A stretch of 32,424 nt of DNA from a virus, in the IMG/VR virus record IMGVR_UViG_3300030107_003706, positions 7,939 to 40,362 of that record; one strand, 5' to 3'. The notes below the pieces were generated by a model. It saw nothing but the letters and a program-made list of their open reading frames with translations. It was not told the origin of the DNA and ran no database searches. Below, piece after piece: positions 6,339 through 28,700 of this stretch; within the stretch, counting starts at the first letter, position 1, and the number at the start of each line of letters is the position of its first letter. Both the position numbers and the translations under genes were made by a program.

Positions 6339-7694
6339 ATGGCATTATTACAAAACACTACTCCACAAGATTATTACCAAAATGAAGATTATGGTAACTA
6401 TCAATTTGTATCTTTAGAAGATATAATAAATCAATTTATGTTTATTTACACTGGGAATGAAAAAATAATACGTAATTGTAGTAGAGTTGATGTTGCTTTT
6501 CATGCTCAAAGAGCTTTAGCAGAACTATCTTTCGATACACTTAAATCTGTTAAATCTCAAGAAATAGAAATACCATCGTCCTTAACAATGGTATTACCAC
6601 AAGATTATGTTAATTATACAAAGTTATCATGGGTTGATGATGCTGGTATAAAACATCCTATATATCCAACAAAACACACTTCTAATCCTCAAAAATATCA
6701 AAAAGATACTAATGATGAATTTTTATTTAATGAAGAAGGAGATTTTATACCATTAGGAGAATTAATAAAAAATGGTAATTTCCATGGCGGAAGTGATAAT
6801 TGGAAATTAAACGAAGCTGCTTTAAATGGTAACGCACAAACCGTAACAACTGTAGCTACTGGAACAGCGCAGGGTGATCCAGAGTCAGGTTGGTTTTATG
6901 AAAAAAATAGTATAAGAGGTTATGCTTTACCACAATTTCAAGCTGTTAGACAAGAAAATATTAACATACGTAGTGGCGAGCAGTACACTATAACTTATAC
7001 TATAAGTAATTATGTTACTGGACAATATCGATTTGGTATAGTAGATGAAAATGGAGATCATACTTTTACAACAGCAAGAAACGCAAATGGAACTTATACA
7101 GAAACAATAACAGCTAGCGCAACCACTGCTAGTTCTATTTCCAATCATATTTTCTTTCAAACAACAACAGATAATTCTGCAACAAGCGGTTTAAATGTTG
7201 TTATAGATGACATATCTATAGTTAGAGTTGGTGATGAAGAAACTTCTACCGCTTGGTCAAATTACAAGTCAACTACTCCATCTGAAAATAACAATGACAA
7301 TTATGAGGACGATGTTTATTGGCCTTACGAAGGAGAGAGATATGGTTTAGAACCTTCTCATGCTCAGGTTAATGGATCTTTTTATATAGATGAATTAAAA
7401 GGATTAATACATTTTAGCTCTAATATTTCAGGACAAACTGTGATATTAGATTATATAAGTGATAGTTTAGGAACTGAATCAGAAATGAAAGTTCATAAGT
7501 TTGCAGAAGAAGCCATGTATAAGTCAATTTTATACGCAGTAGCTTCTGGTTATATGTATACGCAGCAGATAGTACCTAGACTTAAGCGAGAAAAATTTGC
7601 CGCTATTAGACAAGCAAAATTAAGATTATCAAATTTAAAATTAGAAGAATTAACTCAAATACTTAGAGGTAAATCTAAACATATAAAACACTAG
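6339..7694 (+). CDS. Head-tail connector/ring protein with inserted jelly-roll domain
   Basis: A 451-residue protein built from two parts of an adaptor-like core. The N-terminal core (about 20-130) includes DVAFHAQRALAELSFDTLKS and LPQDYVNYTKLSWVDDAG. The C-terminal core (about 320-451) includes YGLEPSHAQVNGSFYIDE, IHFSSNISGQTVILDYISDS and a basic helical end. These are typical of ring/tail-tubular-like connector proteins. Between them, residues about 140-300 form a separate beta-sandwich: it opens LIKNGNFHGGSDNWKL, has YTITYTISNYVTGQYRFGI at 216-234 and closes VVIDDISIVRVGD, the layout of carbohydrate-binding (CBM4/9-like) jelly rolls. A similar pattern recurs in the giant hub encoded next. 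The insert probably projects from the connector as a decoration or glycan-binding domain; this is inference. Confidence 0.65.
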   Translation: MALLQNTTPQDYYQNEDYGNYQFVSLEDIINQFMFIYTGNEKIIRNCSRVDVAFHAQRALAELSFDTLKSVKSQEIEIPSSLTMVLPQDYVNYTKLSWVDDAGIKHPIYPTKHTSNPQKYQKDTNDEFLFNEEGDFIPLGELIKNGNFHGGSDNWKLNEAALNGNAQTVTTVATGTAQGDPESGWFYEKNSIRGYALPQFQAVRQENINIRSGEQYTITYTISNYVTGQYRFGIVDENGDHTFTTARNANGTYTETITASATTASSISNHIFFQTTTDNSATSGLNVVIDDISIVRVGDEETSTAWSNYKSTTPSENNNDNYEDDVYWPYEGERYGLEPSHAQVNGSFYIDELKGLIHFSSNISGQTVILDYISDSLGTESEMKVHKFAEEAMYKSILYAVASGYMYTQQIVPRLKREKFAAIRQAKLRLSNLKLEELTQILRGKSKHIKH

Positions 7695-7700
7695 TATAAT

Positions 7701-10700
7701 ATGCCAGAAATTAAGAATAATTTTCTAAAAGGTCGAATGAATAAAGATCTTGACGAGAGACTTGTTCCAAATGGAGAGTATAGAGATGCGATGAATATAC
7801 AAATCTCTACTTCTGAAGGATCTGATGTTGGGACTGTACAGAATATATTGGGAAGCATAAAACATGATTATAGTCCAGCAGGCACGGAAGTTATACCACC
7901 TAATTGTAAGTGTGTTGGGGCTATATCTGATGAGAAAAATAATAAATTATATTGGTTTATTAAAAAAGAATTTAATCCATTAGAAGATAATTTTGAAGCT
8001 ATAATAGAATTTACTCCACAAGGTCAAGATGTTCCAGCGCAAGTAACACCGGTTATAATTGATACTAAAGTTAACACTGAAGACGCTGTGTTAAAATTTC
8101 CAGAAAAAATTATAACTGGTATAAATATTATAGATAATTTAATATTTTGGACAGATGGTGTTAACGAACCTAGAAAAATAAATATAGATACTTGTAAAGC
8201 TGGTAGTGTTATAGATCCAACTACTTTAAAGTGGAAACACACACAATTAATATTTGATAAAGGTGGTTTTAATGGTTGCTATGTTTTTGACGTAGCTTTA
8301 GCGGGTGGTGGTAATACGTTTGGTAATCAAAAAATGTTTAGTCAATATACCGCAAACAGTCCGAATTCAACACAAGCAAATGGTGGTTTTGGAAGATATG
8401 CTTATTTTCAAAGAGAACACTTAAGCAGTCTTGTGGCTCCATTTGATCTTCCCAATCATTACAACGATATTGCACTTAGACATTATAGGGATGGTAAGTA
8501 TTTAAGAACTGATAGTTTTAAATTTTTTGAAGACGGAAACAATATAATGATTAGATATAATCCTTATACTGGTACTGATGTATTTGATGAAAATCATCCA
8601 AGAGCAATACGAGTAGGTGATGTATTTTTTGCTGATAGAAATGTTTACAGTGATACTAGCGAAAGAGATATAAGAGAAGAACACATAACAGTTATAAAAA
8701 GAAAACCTACAAACAAATTAAACTTTAAAATAAACACGTCAATAAAGACGCGTGGAATAGGTGGTCATACAGGAAGTTTACGACTTTCTAGAGAACATAA
8801 TTCAAATAAAAAACCTCTATTTGAAAATATATTTCCTAGATTTTCTTATAGATATAAATACGCTGACAACGAATACTCAGCGTTTGCTCCATTTACAGAT
8901 GTAGTTTTTAATCCAGAACATAAAAAAGGTTATGATTTAGAATCTTTTTATAATCCAGAAGATTCTATAAACACATCTATGGTTAACACTATAGATTCTA
9001 TCGAATTAACTGATTTTATATCCGCATCAACACCTGAAGATGTTATTCAAGTAGATATACTTTATAAAAGAGAGGATTCTCCAATAATATATTCAATTGC
9101 AAGTGTAACGCATGATGATAACGAATGGCATGATATAGGTTCTAATTTATATTCAGATATTGGATATAATTCTGGTACAAATAAAGCACATATAGTATAT
9201 GGTGACAATTTTAAAGGTAGATTTGTAGTTGATTCAGAAAATATTAGTAATGCTTTACCAGAAAATCAATTATTACGACCATGGGATACTGTTCCTAGAA
9301 AAGCATTAGCCCAAGAGTTAACAGGTAATAGAATAATATATGGTAATTATGTTCAAGGATATACACCAACAACAAAAATACCAAAAGTTGTAGCTGATTA
9401 TAATCCAAGAGCAAACTACGATCTTTTTTACTATAAAGAACAATCTTCATTCGGAAAAGGAAGAAATGCTATAACATCAAATTCATTTGATAAAAAAGGT
9501 TTACCATCTATAAAGTCGCAAAGAAACTACCAATTAGGTGTATCATTCATAGACAAATATGGTAGAGAAACCCCTGTTTTTAGTTCTAGTAAAAGTGCTA
9601 TAAAAATTCCTTGGAGAGATAAATATGGTTCTATATCCTCCACTCAATCCCATCAATTAAACGTAGAATTAAGTGAAGATCCACCAAGCTTCGCTAAGTA
9701 TATTAAATATTTTGTAAAAGAAACTACTACAGAATATTATAATTTACTAATGGATGATATATATGTTCCTGCTGATTATTCTACATTACAAGATAAAAGA
9801 TTTGTTTGGGCATCATTTGCCTCTTCTGATAGAAATAAAATTAGCGAAGAAGATTACATTGTATTAAAAAAGAAAATAGGTGATGCTGGAAAAAATGTTG
9901 TAAAAAATAGTAGATTTAAAGTTCTAGATATTCAAGATAACGCCCCTGACTTTGTTAAATATGAATATATTTCTTATGGTAAAATAAGTCAAACAGGTGG
10001 TTTTCAAGTTGATGGTACAGGGGAAACAGATTTTTTAAATAATAAATTAATGACAAATAGTCATTTAAGACCATCTTCTACGCCGTCAGGTAATCGCGGG
10101 ACAGATATGATAATGATACATCGTGGTCAATGGCAAGGACAAAGAGGTATGCATTTTGCTTTTGGTGATGATGATGATATAAGTCATTTAGAAAAAGATT
10201 TATATTTTTCATTTTTTAGAGATAATGAAACTTTAAGCGGTGGAAGAAGAAGATCAAAAAAATACAAAATCTCAAGCGTAAGAACTGGTACTAATTACAT
10301 GATAAAATTAGCTGAACCAATATCACACGATGATATGAATTTAGCTAAAGCCACTTTTCAGTCTTCATCTTCAACCATGCATGATGATTTAGTTGTAGAG
10401 ATTGAACAAAGAAGATTGCGAAAAGGAGAGGATTTTTCTGGTAAGTTTTTTGTTAAAATAAAAGCTGATGATCTAACAACAGGGGAAAGTGCTGCGTTTG
10501 GATGGATGCCAGGTGGTATAGGTGGATCTTTAACAGAATATTCTACAACAGGTTCTCATGATACTTTTATGTTATTTGATCACCACGGGAGCATGGCTGA
10601 TCTTTCTTATTATCGAGGTATACATAATTCTAATACAGTATATACTGGTAGTAGCAATTCTGGTCGTAACTATAGTTATAGAAAGCAGCATTGGGGTGAT

Positions 10701-13700
10701 CTTCTAGATGATATAGATGCTAATAGCAATAGTAATAGTAGATTTTTTGTTGATGGTATGCACATGATATCTGGACAAATATCTAGTAATAATTATGCAA
10801 AAAATTCTGGACAAATATGGAACGGTATTCACACAAGTTATCCAGAAAATCCTAGATGGGTTGGTACTAAAAATAATGTAGACGATCAAAATCAAAGTGT
10901 ATTAAAACCTAAAGCACCTACATTTATTGGTAACACTGATTTTCCTTTTGGCACTACAAATAATGGTCTTCAAAAAGTAGATGATTCTATAATATTAAAT
11001 AGAGGTTGGGAGCACGCTGCATCAATGTCTGCAAGGTATCCTAGTGGTATAAATAATGATAGAATAGTTAATGGTTTAGAAGGTTATATAAATGGTGTAC
11101 ATAAAATGCATCAAGGGCCAATGGGTGCTAGAAGATGGAAAAAAGAAAATAAAACAGGACAAGGTTTGTATAAAGCAGATTTTTCTTTTGATGATACTTA
11201 CGGTAACACGGATGAGCAAGGTAAAAGTAGTAGTAATACTGCTAGAAATTTTTTATATTTATCTTACTTAGCTCCTGGTAAAGACTTATGTCCACACGAC
11301 GTATATGGAAATACTATTTCTCCTACTTCTACTAATTTTATAGGTAGATGGTTACAAGGTATTTGGGGTGGTGGTTGTTTTACTACTTATGATGGTTCTC
11401 CTTTTGGTGTAAATTTAGATTTATATTCTTTTCCAATGGAAGGAAAAAGTAGAGTAACAAATCTTGATAAGGGCCAAGAACCACCTGGACCAGGAGTTCC
11501 ATATTCAATTGGTTATGATGAGGCGTATAGAGAATATCATGAAAACCAGTGGAATCCATGTTGGCCAGAAAAAGAAAAAGATCCAGATGGAAAAACACAA
11601 GAGTTTATTAATAATCTAAAAGTAGGTCACCAATTTAGATTTCAAGGTAAGGGAAGAATTTACACAATATTAGGTGTATCAGTAAAAAAACTATATAATC
11701 ACACTAATTGGAAAGCTACAAGATATCCTTCAGGAACAAATAATTATAGACAATGGGGTAATGAATGGACGCCATTAGCAAACGATGGTAATGATTCGCC
11801 TGGATCTGGTTATGATGGTAGTTTAACTAGCGTTGAAGAAGCCGCTTTAAATTATGGCCAATATCTTATTACTGAGGGTAGTGATGATGGTAGTGATGCA
11901 GCTGGCTATGCTTTAACTGCTTTAAAAGATATAATAAAATTATTTGGTAGAGCTAATAATAGAAGAATTTGTTATATTTTGGAATTAGACACATGTCCAC
12001 ATAATAGTGATGATGTTTTTAATGACGGTAATATGGATAATGATACCGCTCGTAATATAGAATTCATCAAACCTGTTACTGGTGGTTTAAAAATACAAAA
12101 TAAAAAACCTATTGTATGGGAAACAGAACCTAAAGAAAATACTGATTTAGAAATATACCATGAAGCAAGTGACGCTATACCAACTATTATAGATGAAACA
12201 ACTAAAGATTTTTTTGCTCCAGCTGGTTCAATCGTAGAATTTTTAGAACATGATAATAGCGTCTTATTGCTGCAAAACGATATAGATGGACAGGTTTTTG
12301 AATCACCTAATATACTAAAAAGATGGCATAGTGAAAATGAAATAGAATTATATCCTGGGTTTATATATGAAGACGAAAGTGATACTGAAATAGATTATTC
12401 TGGCACAAAATTAAGGTTTTATAAAAAAGACGGTAGTTATAATACTGTTTTGCTTGCTGCTCAGGAATCTGATCCTGGAAATACTAAAGGTTATTCTTTA
12501 AAAGGTAGAGAGTATAGAACTAGATTTTTAATTAATAGAAATATTAAAAAAGATTTAAAAGTTGGATTAAGCTGGCATAATTGTTTTTCTTTTGGAAATG
12601 GTATTGAATCAAATAGAGTTAAAGATGGTTTTAATGAAATGGTAATTACTAATGGTCCTATTGTTTCCACTACTATAGACACCGATTATCAAGAAGAAAA
12701 TAGGACTAGTGGTTTAATATATTCTGGTATATATAACGCTGATGTTAGTGTTAATAATTTAAATCAATTTATTCAAGCTGAAAAAATAACAAAAGATTTA
12801 AATCCTACTTACGGTAGTATTCAAAAACTATTCCAAAGAAGAGTTGGGTTGGTTGCTTTTTGTGAAGATAGAATTATAAATATAATAGCAGGTAAAGATA
12901 CTTTATTTAATGCAGATGGAACCCCACAACTTATATCCTCTACAAACGTATTAGGTGATGCAACTCCATTTGTAGGTGATTTTGGAATTTCTAAAAATCC
13001 AGAATCTTTTTCTTCAGAAAGTTATAGAGCTTATTTTTCAGATAAACAACGAGGTGCTATCTTAAGATTATCTATGGATGGATTAACGCCAATATCAGAT
13101 GTTGGAATGCGTGATTGGTTTAGAGATAATATTGGTAGTTGGGATGGTAGTATTTTAGGAACTTATGATGAGTATAAAAAAGAATATAATGTAAGTTTAT
13201 TAAACGCAAATCTTTTCTCTACAAATATATTAAGAAATCCTAATATTAACGAAGGTATTGCAACTGGAGACCTTAGTTTGCCACCTACAAATTATATATA
13301 TAATGGACAAATTAATTCTGGTGTTGGACTAATATTGCCTGGGGCTGCAAACGGTGGTGGATATAGTGATACCTATAATACTATTATAAATGGTGGTATT
13401 GATAGTAGAGCTCTTAAAAGTGAAGTTGAAATAACTAATTATGCAACTATTCCGCAAGGACATTTTTATCCTGGTTATACTGGTGGTAGTATGAACTCTG
13501 TGTTTAGTGGAGCTAGTGGTTGGAATACGGTTCTCGCGAGTTTTACAGTACATACAAAACCAGATTCAGCAGCTGATAATCATGGTGTAGAACTATTTAA
13601 TTTTGATTTTGTTTCAGGTGGTGGCTATATAAACTACCTTGGGGCAGGATCTATTAACTTTTTAACTGATATGAAAGCCCAAACTAGTTACGCTATTGGT

Positions 13701-16700
13701 TGGGGAGTACAAAATTTCCAAGGCTGGCAATCTAATAGTGGTTCTATTTGCTATCAAGGAGCTAATTCAGCGTTCGCAACCGTAAATAGCTCAAACAAAG
13801 GTATTCAAAAAACTTTGTACAAAGGTACTTCTCTTTCTCAGCTAGAGGCAGATGCCAACTATTTTCCGATGACAAGTCCTAACTACCCTGAACATCAAAT
13901 GGGAGTTTATGCCATTGGGTTTAATGGTGGGTTTTCTTCATACAGCGGTAGTGGTACCATGCCACCAGCTGGAATGCTAGTGACCGGGCCTCATGTGCAT
14001 ATGGATCTTGGTCCTATGTATAATATGCATGATATATATGGAGGTTTAGTTTTTCCAGGTATTTATAATGGTGGAACTACCACTCCTTGGACCCAAACTA
14101 ACACATCTGGTGGGAATAGACCTAATAATTTAGTTTCTACAAGTGTAACTGGTTGGCCAAGTAATACTCATAATATATCGGTTGGATCTTCTGGTGGAGA
14201 AAATTATCATAATAACACAACTTCTCTTCCTAGTACAAGCCAAACTTTTACTCCTTATGGTAACGGTAGTGGATCTGGTGGTGATTTTAGTACCGCTAAC
14301 AACACAACTATTTTTGCGGGTGAAGAAATAAGGATTACTTTTAAAATAGTTAGGTTAGTACAAAGAAAACATGGTAATACTGGTGCTCATCCATTAACTT
14401 CATATTTTCCCAGTGCATTCCCTTCAACACAATTTGATTGGGGTAACAACCATACTTTTACACCTAGTAGTCCAGATTTAAAAATTCAACTTCTTTTTAT
14501 GGATGGTAGTATTAACAGTATAATTAGTGATGATATTATTTGTAATAGTACAAACGCTGATCAAACTGATATTACACAATATCCTTATAATACATTCCAA
14601 TTCCAAAGCGGTGGTACTGGAACGCAAGGGTCTGACCCAACTAATACGACAGGTTTAGATGAGGATAAAAAAGTTGGTTATATTACAAATTTAAGCCAAG
14701 GTAAGTATACATTCCCGTCGTCAAGAGGTCAAATGAAATATGCGGCAGCGACATTTGTTCCAGGACCAGGAGGAGCTGGTGGTAACGCTCCATACCAAGG
14801 AATTAATTATGTAACACAACCGTTTAATATAGATACTAATAATGTGTTTGCTACAGATACATACTCTAATGGTGAAACTTGGGCTTTAGTAGAATTTGAA
14901 TACGAATGTTATGTGAAGTTTAAACCTACATCAGTAATTGGATATACAGGTTCAACATCTCCTTATAATGGCTCAACTGGTAGTGGTATTTTAAGTTTTA
15001 ATAATGGTAGTGATTATCATGATCAAATAGTTATTAACGACTTAAATATAAGGCTTGGTGTGGATAACGCACTTACTAATAATAGCCCTTTCTTTTTACA
15101 AAATTTTAAAGTTGAAAAAACAGTTGAACTTCAATCACCTGTAGATAAAGGGCAACTTTCTTTTCCTGCAGAAGTACCTATTCCAGCTCAAGAGATACCA
15201 GGGTTTACTACAATTGCAAGAAAAATGTGGAATGACAAATGGACAACATGGTGTAGCCCATCAGCGTCATATGACGCGATAATAATGGCGCATAATGCTA
15301 AAGATACTTTTGGTCCAAATACGCATAATATTGGCAATAATATGGAATATGGTCATCCAAATGGTGGTGTAATAGGACAATTAGCTGAACAAGAACAAAC
15401 TTTAGTAAACTCTGGTATTAATTTACCTGGACCTTCACAAGAAACATTTAAATGGCATAGACTACAGAGTTTAAGTCCAACAGGAAATTTAGGCTCATAT
15501 ATTGGTGGTAACGGTATAACTTATCCTAATTCTACACATAATCCTCTTAATCCTGTAACACAAAGCACTGCTTCTGGAACTGGAAATCTTCACGACCACC
15601 AAGTTCTTAGTCCAGATGAATTTTGGGGTAATGATATTATAAAAATTAACAATCCTAATGATTCAGCAACATTGAACCAAACTCTTCCTTCAGGAACTTT
15701 TGTTGTAGATAACTGGTATTTAGTTGATGTAATGGTAAAAAATTACGTGCAAGGTGAAGTTGCTATAGCAAAAGCTATTGATCCAGATGGATATGGAGCT
15801 CCAGGAGGTAAAGTTTATTTTGACGATCCATCTAATTCATATAATAATATTGATATGCGAGATCCAGGACAACCTGTATTTGGACACTTTGGTGATATTG
15901 ATTACAAAGGAAGTAGTTATAGCAATGGAGATAGTAGAAATATTATAGCTTTAGAAATTCAACCTGGATCAGTGTTTCATAACGAGCCTGCTAGTGGAAG
16001 AGATTTAACAGGTGCTTTAAAACAACCTCTATCAGGAACAACTCTTGTTAATAATCAAAGTGTTACTGGAATGAAAGTTTTTAGAGCTGTATTTAAAGTG
16101 CATTCTAATAGTTGGTATAATTTTAATACTAGTGATCAACTTCAAATATGGTTTGATGATTTTGTAGGTGATGTTGATTGGGTTAATATAGCAAATATAA
16201 CAGGTGCAATTTCAGGTGGTACAGCACCTGGTTGGGATACTACTAGATATAGTTCGCACGACGCATACCAACCAAGTATTATGTATAATCAGTTTTCAAG
16301 AAGAACTAGTTATTGGGATGGGGGTAAATTTAATTTTAGAAATGCATATGCATCAGACGCTTTTGAGCAAGATTTTAGCGCTAACCCTAATCCTTTTGAT
16401 TTTATAGCGTCACCAAGTCCTGATGGTTATACTTTTAGATTTACTGTTAGTAATTATCAACAAGGGAAACTTAGGGTTCAACTACGAACTGCTAATCATG
16501 ATGGAAGCGGTAATACATTGAACTATAATGGACTTCATTGTACAGCTATGAGTAACGGTGATTTTGAAATTAGCAATATCGTTCTTAGTGACGACGGTAC
16601 TAACTATGGCATTACTTATTCAGAATCAGGAGATGATCTTGAGAGTGTCACACCATACGATTCTCTTTCTGGTTGGACATTATATTCTAGTGCTATTGAT

Positions 16701-17813
16701 TCTAATCGCCTTATAATTAATGGGGTTGGTACTTACGCAGATTATATAGCTGGTAGTTCAAACTCTCATTTTACTGGAGACGTAAGTAATATAAGTCTTG
16801 TAGACGCTACAAGTATAGTTTCAGGTGGTGTTATAGGTGCTTGGGATATCACAGGTTTTGATCCTGCAGTAGATACTTTTATAACATATGATGCTGGAAC
16901 TATTAATTTAGATGGAGCTTCGCCAGCACATAGTATACAGCAAAATATAGTTGACGATCTTCTTGTGGGTCAAGCGTTTAGAATCAATATATATTATGAT
17001 TTAACATTTGGATCTTTTAGAATTTATTATTTTAATAAAGATGGAAATGGTTTTAGAACAAATATCATGTCAGCCGCTGATGGAGTAAGTTATTATGATG
17101 ATGTCCATGTTATTGGTGACGATGCTATAAGCGTGGATGATATAAGAAACACTTTTGTAATAGAATTTATGGAGGCTAATGTTGTAGGATCATTAGATAA
17201 TATTTCTATGAAAAGAGAATATATTGTTTTAGAAGAAAATACATTATCTTTTAGTGAAGAAACAAAAGGTTGGATTAGTTTTAAATCTTTTATACCAGAA
17301 AATGGTGTTAGTTTAGCTAAACAATATTATACTTTTAAAGATGGCTATTTACATCAACACCATGCTAATGAAACTAGAAATCAATTTTACGATCAAGATG
17401 CGACTACTATAACAGAATCTTTAGTTAGTTTTGTTTTTAATCAAGAAGCTTCTTTAGTAAAAATATTTAACACTTTAAATTATGAAGGATCACAATCGCA
17501 AATACATCAATATGATACAAATTATATAGATGAAACTATAAGACCTGATAATATTACAGCGAAAGATGGTTGGTATGTTAATTCAATAACAACAGATAAA
17601 CAAACTGGTAGTATTAAAGAATTTATAGAAAAAGAAGGTAAATGGTTTAACTATATAAGAGGTAATAATAATGCATCGATAGAAACAAGTGAGTTTAGTT
17701 TGCAAGGTATAGGTATTGTTAGTGGTAATGTTACTACAATCTCTAGTAGTAATGGTGGTAATGGGGGAGGAGCAACTAATGGTGGCGGCGGAGCAACTGG
17801 TGGTACTTATTAA
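7701..17813 (+). CDS. Giant tail hub / muzzle-like protein with large lectin-like insertions
   Basis: A 3370-residue protein with no signal peptide. The first 50 residues (FLKGRMNKDLDERLVPNGEY, RDAMNIQISTSEGSDVG) and segments near 612-760 (LGVSFIDKYGRETPVFSSSK; RFVWASFASSDRNKISEED; FKVLDIQDNAPDFVKYEY) resemble the stabilisation or 'muzzle' protein of crAss-like phages, related to P22 gp10, which closes the tail tip. Core resumes near 1600-1835 (VGLSWHNCFSFGNGIESNRV, VGLVAFCEDRIINIIAG). The last core segment, about 3172-3345 (LSFSEETKGWISFKSFIPEN), would normally follow soon after. Instead residues about 1836-3172 hold Gly/Ser/Asn/Tyr-rich beta sequence with at least three jelly-roll-like motifs. 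Residues about 935-1550 may be a second insertion. The end is a Gly-rich tail (GGNGGGATNGGGGATGG). Likely role: tail hub plus receptor binding. The frame is unbroken. Confidence 0.72.
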   Translation: MPEIKNNFLKGRMNKDLDERLVPNGEYRDAMNIQISTSEGSDVGTVQNILGSIKHDYSPAGTEVIPPNCKCVGAISDEKNNKLYWFIKKEFNPLEDNFEAIIEFTPQGQDVPAQVTPVIIDTKVNTEDAVLKFPEKIITGINIIDNLIFWTDGVNEPRKINIDTCKAGSVIDPTTLKWKHTQLIFDKGGFNGCYVFDVALAGGGNTFGNQKMFSQYTANSPNSTQANGGFGRYAYFQREHLSSLVAPFDLPNHYNDIALRHYRDGKYLRTDSFKFFEDGNNIMIRYNPYTGTDVFDENHPRAIRVGDVFFADRNVYSDTSERDIREEHITVIKRKPTNKLNFKINTSIKTRGIGGHTGSLRLSREHNSNKKPLFENIFPRFSYRYKYADNEYSAFAPFTDVVFNPEHKKGYDLESFYNPEDSINTSMVNTIDSIELTDFISASTPEDVIQVDILYKREDSPIIYSIASVTHDDNEWHDIGSNLYSDIGYNSGTNKAHIVYGDNFKGRFVVDSENISNALPENQLLRPWDTVPRKALAQELTGNRIIYGNYVQGYTPTTKIPKVVADYNPRANYDLFYYKEQSSFGKGRNAITSNSFDKKGLPSIKSQRNYQLGVSFIDKYGRETPVFSSSKSAIKIPWRDKYGSISSTQSHQLNVELSEDPPSFAKYIKYFVKETTTEYYNLLMDDIYVPADYSTLQDKRFVWASFASSDRNKISEEDYIVLKKKIGDAGKNVVKNSRFKVLDIQDNAPDFVKYEYISYGKISQTGGFQVDGTGETDFLNNKLMTNSHLRPSSTPSGNRGTDMIMIHRGQWQGQRGMHFAFGDDDDISHLEKDLYFSFFRDNETLSGGRRRSKKYKISSVRTGTNYMIKLAEPISHDDMNLAKATFQSSSSTMHDDLVVEIEQRRLRKGEDFSGKFFVKIKADDLTTGESAAFGWMPGGIGGSLTEYSTTGSHDTFMLFDHHGSMADLSYYRGIHNSNTVYTGSSNSGRNYSYRKQHWGDLLDDIDANSNSNSRFFVDGMHMISGQISSNNYAKNSGQIWNGIHTSYPENPRWVGTKNNVDDQNQSVLKPKAPTFIGNTDFPFGTTNNGLQKVDDSIILNRGWEHAASMSARYPSGINNDRIVNGLEGYINGVHKMHQGPMGARRWKKENKTGQGLYKADFSFDDTYGNTDEQGKSSSNTARNFLYLSYLAPGKDLCPHDVYGNTISPTSTNFIGRWLQGIWGGGCFTTYDGSPFGVNLDLYSFPMEGKSRVTNLDKGQEPPGPGVPYSIGYDEAYREYHENQWNPCWPEKEKDPDGKTQEFINNLKVGHQFRFQGKGRIYTILGVSVKKLYNHTNWKATRYPSGTNNYRQWGNEWTPLANDGNDSPGSGYDGSLTSVEEAALNYGQYLITEGSDDGSDAAGYALTALKDIIKLFGRANNRRICYILELDTCPHNSDDVFNDGNMDNDTARNIEFIKPVTGGLKIQNKKPIVWETEPKENTDLEIYHEASDAIPTIIDETTKDFFAPAGSIVEFLEHDNSVLLLQNDIDGQVFESPNILKRWHSENEIELYPGFIYEDESDTEIDYSGTKLRFYKKDGSYNTVLLAAQESDPGNTKGYSLKGREYRTRFLINRNIKKDLKVGLSWHNCFSFGNGIESNRVKDGFNEMVITNGPIVSTTIDTDYQEENRTSGLIYSGIYNADVSVNNLNQFIQAEKITKDLNPTYGSIQKLFQRRVGLVAFCEDRIINIIAGKDTLFNADGTPQLISSTNVLGDATPFVGDFGISKNPESFSSESYRAYFSDKQRGAILRLSMDGLTPISDVGMRDWFRDNIGSWDGSILGTYDEYKKEYNVSLLNANLFSTNILRNPNINEGIATGDLSLPPTNYIYNGQINSGVGLILPGAANGGGYSDTYNTIINGGIDSRALKSEVEITNYATIPQGHFYPGYTGGSMNSVFSGASGWNTVLASFTVHTKPDSAADNHGVELFNFDFVSGGGYINYLGAGSINFLTDMKAQTSYAIGWGVQNFQGWQSNSGSICYQGANSAFATVNSSNKGIQKTLYKGTSLSQLEADANYFPMTSPNYPEHQMGVYAIGFNGGFSSYSGSGTMPPAGMLVTGPHVHMDLGPMYNMHDIYGGLVFPGIYNGGTTTPWTQTNTSGGNRPNNLVSTSVTGWPSNTHNISVGSSGGENYHNNTTSLPSTSQTFTPYGNGSGSGGDFSTANNTTIFAGEEIRITFKIVRLVQRKHGNTGAHPLTSYFPSAFPSTQFDWGNNHTFTPSSPDLKIQLLFMDGSINSIISDDIICNSTNADQTDITQYPYNTFQFQSGGTGTQGSDPTNTTGLDEDKKVGYITNLSQGKYTFPSSRGQMKYAAATFVPGPGGAGGNAPYQGINYVTQPFNIDTNNVFATDTYSNGETWALVEFEYECYVKFKPTSVIGYTGSTSPYNGSTGSGILSFNNGSDYHDQIVINDLNIRLGVDNALTNNSPFFLQNFKVEKTVELQSPVDKGQLSFPAEVPIPAQEIPGFTTIARKMWNDKWTTWCSPSASYDAIIMAHNAKDTFGPNTHNIGNNMEYGHPNGGVIGQLAEQEQTLVNSGINLPGPSQETFKWHRLQSLSPTGNLGSYIGGNGITYPNSTHNPLNPVTQSTASGTGNLHDHQVLSPDEFWGNDIIKINNPNDSATLNQTLPSGTFVVDNWYLVDVMVKNYVQGEVAIAKAIDPDGYGAPGGKVYFDDPSNSYNNIDMRDPGQPVFGHFGDIDYKGSSYSNGDSRNIIALEIQPGSVFHNEPASGRDLTGALKQPLSGTTLVNNQSVTGMKVFRAVFKVHSNSWYNFNTSDQLQIWFDDFVGDVDWVNIANITGAISGGTAPGWDTTRYSSHDAYQPSIMYNQFSRRTSYWDGGKFNFRNAYASDAFEQDFSANPNPFDFIASPSPDGYTFRFTVSNYQQGKLRVQLRTANHDGSGNTLNYNGLHCTAMSNGDFEISNIVLSDDGTNYGITYSESGDDLESVTPYDSLSGWTLYSSAIDSNRLIINGVGTYADYIAGSSNSHFTGDVSNISLVDATSIVSGGVIGAWDITGFDPAVDTFITYDAGTINLDGASPAHSIQQNIVDDLLVGQAFRINIYYDLTFGSFRIYYFNKDGNGFRTNIMSAADGVSYYDDVHVIGDDAISVDDIRNTFVIEFMEANVVGSLDNISMKREYIVLEENTLSFSEETKGWISFKSFIPENGVSLAKQYYTFKDGYLHQHHANETRNQFYDQDATTITESLVSFVFNQEASLVKIFNTLNYEGSQSQIHQYDTNYIDETIRPDNITAKDGWYVNSITTDKQTGSIKEFIEKEGKWFNYIRGNNNASIETSEFSLQGIGIVSGNVTTISSSNGGNGGGATNGGGGATGGTY
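13206..17214 (+). other. Inserted lectin-like region within the hub gene (residues ~1836-3172)
   Basis: This part of the gene separates two conserved hub segments, one ending around EYNVSLL and the other beginning around NTLSFSEETKGW. It is rich in Gly, Ser, Asn, Thr and aromatic residues. The pattern of a Tyr/Phe beta strand, then Asn-Tyr or Asp-x, Gly and a second strand recurs at residues 2672-2690, 2910-2925 and 3091-3108. Strand-ending motifs such as SLDNISM occur as in carbohydrate-binding jelly rolls. It probably contains several beta-sandwich domains on the outside of the tail. Boundaries are approximate, set by where recognisable core sequence stops. Confidence 0.55.
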
Positions 17814-19059: not shown

Positions 19060-19404
19060 ATGGCAATAGATATACCTTATTCAGTAAATAACCAAAACAC
19101 ATCGATGCAAATTGGTGATGTTCTTTATTATATAGCAACTAGTAGTTTATCAAACACGACTTATGGTTCTGATCCTATAAGAATTGGTGTGATTACTAAT
19201 ATAGATCAAACATTAGGTTTAATACGTGTTGAAAATGAAGAAAACACTCCTTCTCAAGGTGACTTTTTAATGTTTCAAAAAAATAAATCAGCTAATAACA
19301 CAAGTTTAATAGGTTATTATGCTGAAATTGAATTAAAAAACAATTCATTAGACCATGCTGAATTATTTGCTGTAAGTTCTGAAGTTGCTCCTAGTAGTAA
19401 ATAA
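19060..19404 (+). CDS. Small structural protein, probable tail or fibre accessory
   Basis: A 114-residue protein with no signal peptide or membrane segment. It has a beta-rich middle (IRIGVITNIDQTLGLIRVEN) and a conserved-looking C-terminal stretch (GYYAEIELKNNSLDHAELFA) ending near SSK. Similar short proteins, whose last segment predicts a 'strand with matching polar or hydrophobic residues', are common beside fibre and hub genes in marine phages, but I cannot name a family. It starts 12 bases after the preceding appendage gene and precedes the putative promoter element at 19417, so it is probably the last gene of the hub and appendage block. Confidence 0.45.
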   Translation: MAIDIPYSVNNQNTSMQIGDVLYYIATSSLSNTTYGSDPIRIGVITNIDQTLGLIRVENEENTPSQGDFLMFQKNKSANNTSLIGYYAEIELKNNSLDHAELFAVSSEVAPSSK

Positions 19405-19891: not shown

Positions 19892-21013
19892 ATGGGTAAA
19901 AGAGCAGCAAGAAATCAAGCAGCAGCTATGAAAGAAATGAATCGAATGGCTCAACAGCAATTTGATTATCATAAAGCAGAGCAAGAAGCTCAAAAAGGTA
20001 TTGTAGCGGAACAAAGAGAACAGTATGAAGCTTTTGATTTTGAAAATCCATACGGTGGAATACAAAATCCTTATAGAGGTCTACAAACAGAATTTGAAAA
20101 TTTAGCCTCTGGAGCAAGAAACGTATATGCTGGCATGGAAAATCCTTATGAGGATTTAACTGTTGACATGCGGGCTGCTGAGTTTCAAGCACAACAAGGG
20201 GCACAACAAAGAGCAAATATATTATCTGGATTAAGAAGCGCTGCTGGATCTAGTGGTGTTGCTGGTTTAGCCCAAGCTTTAGCAAACCAAGGAACAATAC
20301 AAGCTCAACAAATATCAGCAAATATAGGGCAGCAAGAAAGAGCGAATCAAAGATTAGCTGCTCAAGGCCAAATGCAAATTGAACAAATGGAAAGAGCTGG
20401 TGAAGCTGATTTACAAAAAATGAGAATAGCAGGAGCGCAACAAGCTCAAGCGCTAGGTATTTCAAGACAAAACATGGTGGCGCAAGGTGGTTTTCAAGCA
20501 GAGCAATTAAGAACACAAGGGGATGCTATGGTACAAGCAGCAGAATTTGGTAGAGAATCTAGCTTAATGGGTATGGAATATGGTTTATTAGCTGGCGCTA
20601 ATCAAGCTTTATCAGGAGCTATGGCGAATCAAATGTCAGGCATGGGTATGACAGCGAATATGTATGGCCAACAAGCTCAACAACAAGCAGGTATGTGGGC
20701 GCAAGGTATAGGTTTAGCTGCTTCAATAGCTTTGGCACCAGTAACTACAGTTGCAGCGGGCGGGGCAACCACGACGGCTCCTTTTATATCTACTTGGGGA
20801 TCTGATAGAAGATTAAAGAAAAATATAAACTTAATAGGTCAATCACCTAGTGGATTAAACATATATAGCTTTGAATATATAGATTCAAAATATGGAGATG
20901 GATTGTTCCAAGGTGTAATATCTGACGAAATACCTTCTAATGCTGTGTATAGCATAAATGGATATGATCATGTTGATTACAGCGTGTTAGACGTAGAATT
21001 TAAACAAATATAA
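19892..21013 (+). CDS. Coiled-coil internal/ejection protein with C-terminal S74 chaperone-like domain
   Basis: A 373-residue protein starting 2 bases after the previous stop. Residues 1-260 are Ala/Gln/Met-rich and helical, with a hydrophobic Ala/Gly segment near 268-295 (GLAASIALAPVTTVAAGG) that could insert in a membrane. This composition fits T7 gp14-like internal proteins that form part of an ejection channel. The last 70 residues begin with S304-D-R-R-L-K-K-N-I, the signature start of peptidase S74 intramolecular chaperone domains, in which that Ser takes part in self-cleavage. It continues with YSFEYID, GVISDEIP, and ends VDYSVLDVEFKQI. The long C-terminal coiled coil of endosialidase-type S74 domains is absent, so this is a minimal version. 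It could alternatively be a tail fibre; Ala/Gln richness and neighbours favour an internal protein. Confidence 0.6.
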   Translation: MGKRAARNQAAAMKEMNRMAQQQFDYHKAEQEAQKGIVAEQREQYEAFDFENPYGGIQNPYRGLQTEFENLASGARNVYAGMENPYEDLTVDMRAAEFQAQQGAQQRANILSGLRSAAGSSGVAGLAQALANQGTIQAQQISANIGQQERANQRLAAQGQMQIEQMERAGEADLQKMRIAGAQQAQALGISRQNMVAQGGFQAEQLRTQGDAMVQAAEFGRESSLMGMEYGLLAGANQALSGAMANQMSGMGMTANMYGQQAQQQAGMWAQGIGLAASIALAPVTTVAAGGATTTAPFISTWGSDRRLKKNINLIGQSPSGLNIYSFEYIDSKYGDGLFQGVISDEIPSNAVYSINGYDHVDYSVLDVEFKQI

Positions 21014-22783: not shown

Positions 22784-25700
22784 ATGCCAAAGTATTTTTA
22801 TAACAATCAACCTATAACTGAAGCGAAGGTATTAGAATTAGCTAAAGCTGAAAACATGACTTTTGATGATTTTTTAAATTCCTCAAAAGATATAGAGGTT
22901 AGAGAGGATGATAGTGAAACTAATGGTTCAACAATAGTAGAGATAGATATATCATCTGCTCCTATCGATCAAACTATTGACTTACCACAAGTAACTAAAC
23001 AAGACGTAAGAAAAACAGAAGAAGACGCGATAAAAATTCTTAAGAAAAAGTACGGTGGATTAGGTTTTGAATTTGAAGAATCAGGTTGGTATGGTGATTA
23101 TATCACTATAAAAGCGCCAGATACTTATGATAATCAAGGTAATTTAATAGAAGGTGAAAGTAAAAGGTTTGATTTTGACGTATTTTGGAGTAGTTCAAAA
23201 AAAGAAGCAAACGAAATAAATGAATTTATAGCTAAACATGCTAACAACGCTAATGTATCGGAAGGTATTAATACTAACCAATATGCTAATGCTTGGGGTT
23301 TTATAGATAGTAAAGCACAACAAGTAGATATTAACGACATGAGCTCTAAAGAACTTGTTGATTTTTCAAATAGTATTTTAAAAGAATTAGATAAATCAAA
23401 AGATATTACAGGTATTTCTGAAAGAATACAAGCTAACATGGGTGATTTTCAAAGAAAAATTATATCAGATTTAAGAAAAAAATATGATGTAAACACTATA
23501 GATGGTTCAAACTCCGCATTAGAAGAATATAATAAATTATTAAACGAAGAGTTTTACAAAAGAATATTAGCTGACGAAGAGTATCAAAAATTAAAAAAAT
23601 CTAACACAATGGCTGTTAGAAGTTATTTTGGTCAAGATATAGAAAAAATAATTCGTGATGAAGGTGAATTAGAGGTAATGCCTAATTGGGTTAATAAAAA
23701 TCCAGTAATGAATAATTTAGTTAAAGGTGTTTGGGGAACTGCAAATATAAAATTACCAAAATCTTATTATGAGTTTTCAGGTTTAAATCAAGCTAAAAAA
23801 TTAGAAAATATTTATAGCGAAATACAAAAATACGAAGCTATGGATCCTAATGAAAAAGTGAGATACTCTGATTATTCTAGTGATCCAAATTTAAATATTG
23901 CAAATAAAGAGTATACAGCTGGAGAACTTGTTGAGTTGTTAAAAAGAAATAAAGGAGTTTATGAAGAAGGAATAGCTCATAATATAATAAAGTCCAACGA
24001 ATATCAAGAAAAATTATCAAAAATAAAACTACCAAAAATATTTGAAGATGATGGTGTTGGACTTAGCGGTGAAGAATTTTGGAGAATAATTGGTGATCAA
24101 AGTGTACAGATGATTGGTGCTGCTTTATCGCTTGGTGGTACAACACTCATGCAGGAAGGTGGTGGTGCTTATGCTGAAATAACCACAGCTAAAGCAGCTA
24201 TGAAAATGTTTCCAGGTTTAGATAAAAACCAAGCAATACAAGCTTTTAAAGAGCTTGATATGGAAAAACAAACAGCTGCTATATTAGATTTAATTGAAAA
24301 AGGAGAAGGTGATTTAAACACTGCTTTTAACATTGGTGTTAAAAACGCTGGTTTAGATCTTATAGGTAATTTTGTAGTTATAGGTAAAGCTGCTAAGTTT
24401 TTACCAAAAAGTTTAGGTAGAGATTTTTTAGGAGAAAGATATAAAGACTTTTTAAAAGGAGGTTGGAGAACAGTTGGTAAAGATGTTACTATAGGTTCGT
24501 TTGCTGAGGTTGCAACAGAAATAGCACAAGAAGGTATTAACATATTTGGTGTTGGCAAAAGTACAGGTGAAAACATCAAAGACATGTGGACCACAGAAAA
24601 TGGTACTAGATTACTAGAAGCTGGTGCACAAGCGCTTATAGCAACGGGTCCTATAATTGTTGGTGGACAAGCAGTAAGTACTGTTACAAAAGAGATAGCA
24701 ACTCAAATATCTGCTATAAAAAATCCGGATCATCAAAGAAACTATATTAATCTTAAAAAGAAAGAAATTGATAAACAGTTTAAAAACGGTAGATGGACTA
24801 GAGAAGAAAGAGATAATCTTTTTACAAAACTAGAAGGTTACGAGCAAAGTTTTAATTTCGAAAATTTGGATGGTGACGGAAGAAAAGACGTGGTAAATAA
24901 ACTTACTGAAAAAGCTAAAAACGACATAAAGATAAACAAGCTTGAAGAAAAAATTAAAAAACAAAATAAAGAGTTTGCGGACGCAGGTTTAGATCAAACT
25001 ACAAACGTTATAGACGAGATAGAAATAAAAGATCTTAAAAGAAGTAATAAGTCTATAAATGATGGTATTATAAAAGAAGTTTTAGCTAGCAATTATAGAA
25101 GTAGCGGTAAAACTTTAGCACAATGGGTTAATGAGCAAAAAGAAGGGTTGTTTAAAGATAAGCAAGTTATTACTTTTGATAATCTTGAACAAGCAACTGA
25201 GTACGTTGTTAAAAATAATATAAAATTTAACAGTAAAAAACAAAAACAAAAATTTTTAAATGGTGAGGTTAATGGTGTAAACTTAGGTGATACAGCACTT
25301 ATAGTAGATAAAGTTGTAAATAAAAACATTAAAAATAACAAATGGAATTCTTCAAATACTATTCATCATGAAGTATTACATTTTATATTAGATACTATAG
25401 ACACTAAGAAATTACAAGGTATGATAAAAAGTACCATGAGTAAACTAAAAAACTCCACAGATCCAACGATGTCAAAAGTATACGAGTTAACAATGGAGCA
25501 GTTTAGTCAATATTATTTCGATAAAAATGTTAGCGACGATGTTTTAGCGGAAGAGTTTTTTACAGCTTTGTCTGACGCTATGCAATTTATGAAACTAGCT
25601 GATTTAAACGTTGAAAATGGTTCTGTTTTAAATGATATTGGTAAAACTTTACAAAATATATTTTCTAAAAACACAAATGCAAGTATTGATTTTAGCGGAT

Positions 25701-28700
25701 TAAACGCTGAAAACATGATAGAGTTTATAAAGAAATATAATGATTTTAACGGTAAAGGCCAAAAATACGATCCTATAAAAATAAAAGGTGCTACAGATGT
25801 TAAAGAGCCTGAGGTTAAAGAATCTATACCTACCTTATCTCGTGAGGAAGTAAAACAGATACAAGAAAGAGTTACTGAGATAGGTTTAACATATAACATG
25901 GAAGGTGGTAAAAAGCTTTGGGATGAAGGAGGTTCTAAAGCAGCTATTGAAGAAATAAAAAAAGATGGCTTATTAGATAATTTAATAGCATCTAAATATA
26001 AAGTTAGACCTGTGCCTGAAACTTTTGTTAGTGATGTTATAGCACAATTACTACCAGATATAAGAGGATTTAATCCTGAAATAAATAATGATCTTGGTGG
26101 TTATTTAGGTTCTAGAGTAAATTTTAGAGCTGGTGATGTATATAATAAATTATACAAAGATAAAGGTCCAAAGAAAACAGTACGTACAGAAGAAAAAACT
26201 AAAGAAGGTGAAGTAAGAGTACAAGTTGCAGCAGAAAAAGATCCTACATTAGAAGCTTTTGAAACAGAAGACTTATCTTTTGCTGGAAGAGCTAAAAGAA
26301 GAGCTGAAAGTAACAAGAAAAACCAAGTGCAATATTCTAAGTTAAGAAAAGCTATGGGTGTTGAACTTGGAAGTGATTTGTATAATAGAGTCTTAGATGG
26401 TTCTAAAAAAGCTTTAATAAGAGCTTATGAAACTGGTAAACCAGTTAGACAAATACAAAGAGATTTAAAAGACGCTGCTAATACGTATATATTTAAAACA
26501 GTAAAAAACTTTTTAGGTACAAAAACATATATAAGTAATTTAAGAAAACTTAGAGAACCTATTATAAATTCTATGTTTACAGCTGATTTAGTACAAATGG
26601 AAAGAGAAGTTGCAGATGATAAAAAAGTATTTACTAAGTTTGTAAAACAATTAACTAGTAAAGAACAAGTGCAAAGTGCAGTTAATCAAAACTTACTTCC
26701 ACCATCTGCTCTTAATACTATAGATAGAGGACAAGCTGTTAATTTATACGAAAAAGTAATGCCTACAGAAGAACAGTTTGTAGCATTTTTTGATCAACCA
26801 GCTATAAACCCTGTAACAGGTAGAAGATCTGGTTTAAAAGGCACTAGAAAAGATCAACTTGCTAAATACATGGCTAACTCTCTATCATTAGACGCAATGT
26901 TGCAAGTAGCAAAAGATCCTGATGTTGCACAAAAAAGACAAGGTTTTGCAGAATTAAGAGGTGAAAGTCTAGCTGAAAATGATTTACAAGTTTTAGCAGC
27001 AAACATAGGTAGAGATATAAATGTTAAGTTTAGCGAAGTGTCTAATACGATAGATTATAATCTCATAGATAATACTATAAAACTTTTAAAATTAACAAAA
27101 CCACAAGCAAAAAAGTTTTTAAGCGTTTTAGATACAAAAATAGATAAAACAAAAGACGAGTATACTAAATCTATACTACAAGAATTAAGAAATAATTTTG
27201 ATTTAAACGTAGAATTAAGAGATACTAAAATAGCTGATATACCTTTTACAAATATAATAGATACAGATGCTATCGTAACTGATGTAAAAAAGACATACAT
27301 GTCTGAAATAAGACAAATTGGTCATGATGCTTTTGTTGAGCTATTACAAGACGCAGATCTTGCTACTGTAACTGAGTTTGTAAAAAACGTATTTAGATCT
27401 AGTAGATCAGCACCTGGCGTAATGACTGGTTTTACTAACGAAATATTAAAAACTGAAGTTTTAGATAAAATACAAGATGGTAGATTTGTTGATGATTTTG
27501 TATTAGTAACTGTTCCTAATGGAAAGGCTATTGCTAATAAAAAAGGCGAAATAATAGAATTATACGAAAGTATTGAAAATATAAAAGATAATGTTAGAAA
27601 TAATGCTAAACTAGTTGATAAAGTTAATAAACAAGCAGAAGAAGCTCAAAAGTTTATTTTCAAAATATTAGATTCTAATTTAACAAGAGGTAAAAAAATA
27701 GCAATGATACAGCTGATCGCTTATGATCAAAGAGGCGCTGTTAGAAAAGCCTCTAAAATGGGTATAACTTTAAATAAGCAATCTAATCTAACCTTTAAAA
27801 GTCTAACGTTAGATCATGAAGTAACTATTAACGACACTGTAGATACTTTAATAGATTATATAAATGGTAAAGTGGAAAGAACAGACGTAGAAAATATGTT
27901 TGATAAATCTTTTGTACATGTTATACCCAATAATATAGATAAAGCTTTAACCGATAGAGGTTATAAAAGTAAAGGTGGTCTTAATAGATACGATAATATT
28001 TTAGATTTATTATTAGAAGCTGAAAAACAAGGTGTTTTAACTTTAACAGATGAGTTGGCTGCTAGAGCTAAAGATGATAGCACTGTCGGTAATATTGTAA
28101 AAGAGTCTAGAACTTCTAGTAAAACAAGTAAAGGAATTACTATATTAGACTTTGATGACACGTTAGCTACTACTAAATCCATGATAAGATTTACTAGGCC
28201 TGATGGAACTGAAGGTAAGCTAAATGCAGAACAATATGCTAGTACGTATGAAGATTTGTTAGGCAAGGGATATATATTTAATTTTTCTGAGTTCAGTGAA
28301 GTTGTAGGTGGTAAGCCAGCACCGCTTTTAAACAAAGCTAAAAAACTTGCTGGAAAGTTTGGTACTAAAGATATGTTTATATTAACTGCTAGACCTGCTG
28401 ATTCAGCACCAGCTATACAAAGATTTTTAAAAGCCAATGGTTTAAACATACCTTTAAAAAATATAACTGGTTTAGGTAATAGCACATCAGAAGCAAAAGC
28501 ACTTTGGGTTTTAGATAAAGCACAAGAAGGTTATAATGATTTTTATTTTGCAGATGATGCCTTACAAAACGTACAAGCTGTGCAAAACATGCTAAATCAA
28601 GTAGATGTTAAATCAAAAATACAACAAGCTAAAGTTAAATTTAGCAAAGCAATGAGTATTGATTTTAACAAAATATTAGAAGAAATAACTGGTATCGAAT

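Follow-up and report, generated by a model that had tools for sequence, protein, structure and literature searches.

A crAss-type tail muzzle of 3,370 residues carries, within a hairpin of its conserved core, a long insert that is predicted to fold into carbohydrate-binding module (CBM)-like beta-sandwiches. The explanation that we favor overall, with a probability of about 0.7, is that a CBM-like array located in the muzzle hairpin likely mediates adhesion to host polysaccharide alongside separate tail fibers; this fast-evolving insert probably helps the virus to grip its bacterial host. The window, i.e., the whole stretch of DNA analyzed here (32,424 nucleotides), covers bases 7939-40362 of a 40,362-base IMG/VR record (IMGVR_UViG_3300030107_003706).

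The muzzle gene and its neighborhood

The muzzle ORF consists of 3,370 codons in a single frame without a stop (Table 1), in agreement with the earlier note, which had claimed an unbroken frame across core and insert. The encoded protein is a crAss-type muzzle, or nozzle, as indicated by matches to phrog_14478 (4e-122) and to the Pfam family PF25729 (crAss_MUZ_C; residues 3225-3322, 32.0 bits with a cut-off of 27). By position and family, the gene directly upstream encodes the ring/tail tubular protein; portal and virion structural proteins are also encoded upstream of the muzzle in the window, and the terminase lies within the upstream 8 kb of the record. The phage records matching the muzzle belong to Flavobacterium, Cellulophaga, Tenacibaculum and Maribacter phages and to MW202828, and those that we opened are classed as Pervagoviridae, Pachyviridae, Elemovirus or unclassified Caudoviricetes. 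The viruses of the insert-bearing lineage are relatives of crAss-like phages; bacterial genomes, searched to assign a host, gave no relative.

Several features of the neighboring genes deserve mention. The ring protein contains an extra stretch (approximately residues 139-300) with CBM-like motifs, which is located between its conserved halves and differs in occupancy across homologs; no homology was detected between this stretch and the insert domains of the muzzle. The two halves of the family phrog_18548 match different regions, the first the muzzle C region (17232-17720) and the second a small ORF (19060-19404), which points to a fused version elsewhere. The product of the ORF at 19892-21013 is rich in Gln and Ala and is perhaps a cargo protein; its C-terminus is similar to the Peptidase_S74 chaperone, at a score below the cut-off (15.1 of 22 bits).

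Table 1 Parts of the muzzle protein and the adjacent ring gene, in window coordinates
Feature	Position	Strand	Basis
Ring/tail tubular gene	6339-7694	+	phrog_13977, 4e-47; directly upstream of muzzle
Muzzle (tail nozzle) gene including insert	7701-17813	+	3,370 aa; phrog_14478, PF25729, family hhalign to gp44
Core A1, residues 1-190	7701-8270	+	Profile; family aligned to gp44 1-152
Core A2, residues 370-760	8808-9980	+	Profile
Variable stretch A2-B, residues 761-1611	9981-12533	+	Spacing of 207-1,154 aa across homologs
Core B, residues 1621-1833	12561-13199	+	Profile; final strand YNVSL; aligned to gp44 from ~1055
Insert, residues 1834-3177 (1,344 aa)	13200-17231	+	Profile limits and homolog spacing
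NILRNPNINEG, inferred first strand of d4	13224-13256	+	CBM matches of L094 start at the motif
NYIYNGQINSGVG, inferred first strand of d3	13290-13328	+	CBM match ranges in the window's model
d1 (approximate)	13467-15164	+	Most divergent insert part in close pairs; absent in L094, L095, L093
d2 (approximate)	15165-16154	+	Insert alignment; matching L094 region mostly of high pLDDT
d3, predicted CBM-like beta-sandwich	16152-16784	+	Homologous to d4; VIA match to CBM16 2zex
d4, predicted CBM-like beta-sandwich adjoining hub	16785-17231	+	VIA matches of the L094 model
Core C, residues 3178-3340	17232-17720	+	First strand TLSFSE; contains PF25729 match

A long insert at one site of the core

The limits of the four core segments (A1, A2, B and C) were set by profiles. 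These were first run on 80 related loci from IMG/VR together with three annotated phages and afterwards on a larger set of 219 loci, of which 134 are distinct in segment B; the B-C spacing could be measured in 120. The spacing is bimodal, 0-177 residues in 73 of the 120 distinct homologs and 658-1,412 residues in the other 47, with none in between. What the earlier note had stated, namely, that the segments are close together in most homologs, is now documented, and the insert that it had placed at 13206-17214 agrees to within a few residues with the limits given by the profiles. The insert is rich in Gly (11.2%), Ser (9.7%), Asn (9.4%), Thr (8.3%) and Tyr (5.1%), with Lys and Glu at 2.5% each. 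Besides it, the muzzle contains a second long non-core stretch that the earlier note did not name (residues 761-1611), which, judging by its position, is probably the IG2/crass-domain region.

The insertion site is common to the homologous family of insert-bearing muzzles, where the insert separates the strand YNLTL from the strand TLSFSE (YNLTL^TLSFSE); in the muzzles that lack the insert, a short loop links both strands, e.g., YNITLTKHSEGGTTGETLSFSE in L015. The insert of the window aligns lengthwise with the inserts of many relatives at this one site and therefore is not a chance occurrence. None of the annotated muzzles that we examined has room for such an insert, including those of phi38:1 (1,324 aa), elemoF (1,493 aa), phi46:3 (1,612 aa) and Gundel_1 (1,386 aa) as well as gp44 and five relatives (1,340-1,503 aa).

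A 727-residue insert in a muzzle of a distant clade (L190:5961-8141) occupies the same hairpin and does not match the insert profile. Sister clades without the insert (L043, L039, L056, L069, L062, L066 and others) often have 100-1,500 residues after segment C; when 15 of these tails were aligned together with the L190 insert, GCTDPxAxNYNxxAxxDDGSC repeats became apparent, and two of the aligned members match Fn3. A BLAST comparison of the inserts with the C-terminal tails of the sister clades showed no similarity. We also considered the insert as a mobile module that occurs in separate genes and rejected this possibility: when all ORFs of the loci were searched, the insert profile matched only insert-bearing muzzle-type ORFs.

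Position of the insert in the tail hub

The muzzle of phage phiCrAss001, gp44, is a hexamer that comprises ring-joining, seven-bladed propeller, IG1 (residues 163-292) and IG2 domains, the latter with the crass fold (318-1021), and the varying length of muzzles has been attributed to insertions in the crass domain and in IG2 (PMC10172136). An alignment to gp44 had been proposed in the earlier note, and an hhalign comparison of the family with six Crassvirales muzzles demonstrated homology over both ends of the core: gp44 1054-1280 was matched by the C-terminal core (probability 99.0, E 6e-18) and gp44 1-152 by the N-terminus (probability 96.6, E 7e-10). The IG2/crass region yielded a weak partial family match at gp44 364-409 (probability 0.2). 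A separate comparison with the B-C alignment alone agrees on this placement. In the profile alignment, the B-C junction falls at approximately gp44 residue 1198, in a strand-strand hairpin, VYFTY-KDH-CLCYSE. The insertion site thus lies outside the published IG2/crass insertion regions, most likely in a propeller blade.

Predicted fold and proposed nested architecture

Two AlphaFold2 models were obtained, one for L094 (segment B, a 658-residue insert and segment C) and the other for residues 1837-3036 of the window's muzzle, with d4 cut off. The L094 insert was predicted mostly at pLDDT 80-95, with the B and C parts mostly poorly folded; the mean pLDDT of the window's insert was 58.6. VIA-align matched the L094 model to a hyaluronan-binding module (4d0q; Z 13.2, 146 residues, 3.3 A), CBM16 (Z 12.9) and CBM4-2 (Z 12.6), and the window's insert to CBM16 (2zex; Z 11.9, 134 residues, 2.9 A). 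Collectively, the top rows consist of CBM16, CBM4 and hyaluronan- and porphyran-binding modules, suggesting that the insert domains are CBM-like beta-sandwiches, and the 'lectin-like' character ascribed to the insert in the earlier note stands as a predicted fold (Z 11.9-13.2). A shared CBM fold alone is no proof of sugar binding. Searches of Pfam and PHROGs with the inserts gave no confident family match, and 17 inserts compared with Pfam matched no CBM family; accordingly, we refer to the insert as CBM-like rather than as a CBM family member. A direct sequence search of the PDB with the insert or the B-C profile gave no match, and the gp44 chain is absent among the VIA matches listed, an absence that is uninformative.

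The distribution of the matches along the models points to a nested arrangement. The L094 model is matched to CBMs over residues 246-900, a range that opens at the NILRNPNINEG motif and closes at the end of the insert although only ~125-146 residues are aligned; since it takes in both the beginning of the insert and its final strand, the first strand apparently belongs to the last domain. For the window's model, the matches run from model residue 23-28 to residue 1200, and in the absence of the last domain the next one is predicted to use the second motif (NYIYNG). Furthermore, d3 is homologous to d4 (hhalign probability 96.7, E 3e-10). On the basis of strand ownership in the models and of this homology, we propose a nested order in which d4 would hold d3, which in turn would hold d2 and d1; within this predicted order, the positions of d1 and d2 are the most tentative. 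Not only are the first and last strands of the insert predicted to belong to one domain, but the flanking core strands are contiguous in insert-less homologs, which agrees with the earlier suggestion of an insert looped out of the hub. The structure prediction proposed at the same time succeeded in part: the insert of L094 folded for the most part, and an intact propeller with the insert looped out was not recovered, B and C having folded poorly in L094.

Divergence and evolutionary history

Across 1,035 pairs in the insert clade, the insert diverges faster than every other region of the muzzle compared, with median identities of 72% for B, 50% for A2, 48% for C, 32% for A2-B and 21% for the insert. 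When B is near-identical, the differences between the paired muzzles fall mainly within the insert; in the pair L024/L026, identity is 45-66% in the N-terminal 400 residues of the insert and 74-90% in the rest. Part of d1 is missing from L094 and L095 (insert-profile positions 81-440) and from the partial muzzle L093 (positions 83-439). The dN/dS values of the inserts are below one (0.20-0.49); those of B are 0.01-0.07. A diversity-generating retroelement was considered as a source of the variability and rejected, no reverse transcriptase (PF00078) being found in 32 records, which are possibly fragments.

A core tree with 118 rows groups 46 of the 47 insert-bearing muzzles into a single clade of 49 (SH-aLRT 99), whose other three members are the insert-less L010 and the pair L015/L019; the muzzle of the window and L002-L006 form a fully supported group of six. 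The insert label changes four times on this tree, and its best reading is one old gain, at least two losses and a separate, unrelated gain in L190. A second tree, built with a mixture model, requires three changes inside the clade and its sisters and rejects a forced separation of insert-bearing from insert-less rows (p-AU 1.6e-5). A similar pattern could also arise if homologous inserts had been gained independently at one site or if the core had recombined. For the three insert-less members of the insert clade (L010, L015 and L019), inspection of the same cluster revealed no gene that would replace the insert. As for the earlier statement that 'the phage' has put its receptor-binding apparatus inside the hub, the insertion itself is confirmed but is not private to one phage: the insert is old and clade-wide, occurring in 46 distinct muzzles.

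Role of the insert

The gene order around the muzzle is identical with and without the insert. Tail-fiber genes are present in records of insert-bearing relatives: a phrog_6722 gene (E 9e-66) in the 69.7 kb record of L207 and a weak phrog_972 match in the 66.9 kb record of L003, which belongs to the same six-member subclade as the window, both beyond a large gene homologous to window positions 22784-30721. The L003 record also encodes a protein with a MAM domain (1.9e-22) and a signal-peptide-like start (L230:10354-12936, minus strand). The view that receptor binding resides in the hub rather than on separate fibers is therefore not supported, and the lack of a separate tailspike gene in the window says nothing about the phage because the record ends at 40,362, before the fiber region of its relatives. 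As the relatives' genomes encode fibers elsewhere, these fibers may account for most of the binding.

Adhesion at the tail tip appears to be the likeliest role of the insert. We envisage that, in an ancestor of the lineage, a CBM-like beta-sandwich entered a short hairpin of the core of the muzzle, which would close the tail tip, probably in a propeller blade. The insert would then have grown from inside, with d4 on the hairpin, d3 placed after the first strand of d4, and d2 and d1 after the first strand of d3. Because the insert would start and end in one domain, the hub should still be able to fold, with the array projecting. If the muzzle is hexameric like gp44, six arms would be arranged around the tail tip, d1 being their outermost part; most likely, they would bind host surface polysaccharide, adding avidity to the separate tail fibers, and such binding would draw the muzzle up to the membrane so that its gate can open.

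A structural decoration, which would thicken or protect the tail tip or hold it at a distance from the cell surface but would not itself bind a ligand, is an unlikely alternative. Tandem jelly-roll domains can act as spacers, and the insert is kept across the clade under purifying selection and has been lost in some relatives. However, its divergence is the fastest in the muzzle and, in close pairs, is greatest in the N-terminal half, a pattern that fits host-facing parts better than spacers. It is quite improbable that the insert serves separate tail-fiber proteins as a docking platform instead of binding host glycans: insert-bearing relatives do have fiber genes, but such a surface should be conserved whereas the presumed outer part is the least conserved, and in phiCrAss001 the fibers attach to the collar, namely to THA/THB at R1-R2, rather than to the muzzle (PMC10172136). 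Very improbable, too, is an enzyme hidden in d1, such as a polysaccharide-cleaving domain. This part is large, variable and poorly predicted, and agarase and glucanase structures occur among the VIA rows of the window's insert, but these score only around Z 8, with binding modules occupying the top of the list, and no enzyme family was found in Pfam or PHROGs. Finally, although the C part is in a separate ORF in five loci (L072, L073, L083, L148 and L202), a joining of two genes by assembly chimera or frameshift artefact is refuted by the 47 distinct muzzles with a long in-frame insert on many independent contigs, 46 of them in one clade. In L083 (MW202828), an ORF on the 184-aa scale annotated as a putative glycosidase is located between the muzzle and the separate C ORF.

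Given one homologous insert family and the unrelated insert of L190 at the same hairpin, we tentatively entertain, at less than even odds, a broader idea: the propeller hairpin may be a reusable port at which nested receptor-binding modules are added, lost and re-added, coupling binding to the gate, with sister lineages using C-terminal adhesin-like modules. If adhesion by the insert is real, a glycan-binding-like array in the gate-bearing protein would provide a direct physical link from binding to ejection, and the natural losses (L010 and L015/L019) offer insert-less relatives for comparison. Moreover, a modular site outside IG2/crass should help to annotate relatives with odd-looking muzzles of 3,000 residues.

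Comparison with known systems

The muzzle of the window resembles phiCrAss001 gp44 in that the N- and C-terminal cores align (1-152 and 1054-1280) and the gene adjoins that of the ring protein, but the published insertions are in the crass/IG2 region (318-1021) whereas here ~1,300 residues are accommodated in a hairpin near position ~1198. With CBM16, CBM4 and the hyaluronan-binding module 4d0q, the insert shares a predicted beta-sandwich fold, but it has no sequence match to any Pfam CBM family. Crassvirus tail spikes carry BACON and lectin-type domains (PMC10136315); the likeness extends to carbohydrate-binding-like domains on tail proteins and to rapid evolution, but in the spikes these domains are on separate proteins and here they are inside the muzzle.

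The closest analog appears to be the CBM-carrying 'evolved Dit' of siphophages. In 936 lactococcal phages, as summarized in PMC6669499 (citing Hayes et al. 2018), the evolved Dit has a CBM insertion additional to the receptor-binding protein, and for some such phage CBMs host binding is reported there as shown. The common feature is a carbohydrate-binding module, here a predicted CBM-like one, within a conserved tail hub protein. The differences are the other hub protein and host group and, in the present case, a putative nested multi-domain array in a crAss-type nozzle, for which binding is our inference. Because the protein described here is a muzzle by family tests, the comparison is limited to the working principle: a crAss-type muzzle seems to follow the evolved-Dit principle, with the insert at a position that the published insertion regions do not include and in an apparently nested arrangement.
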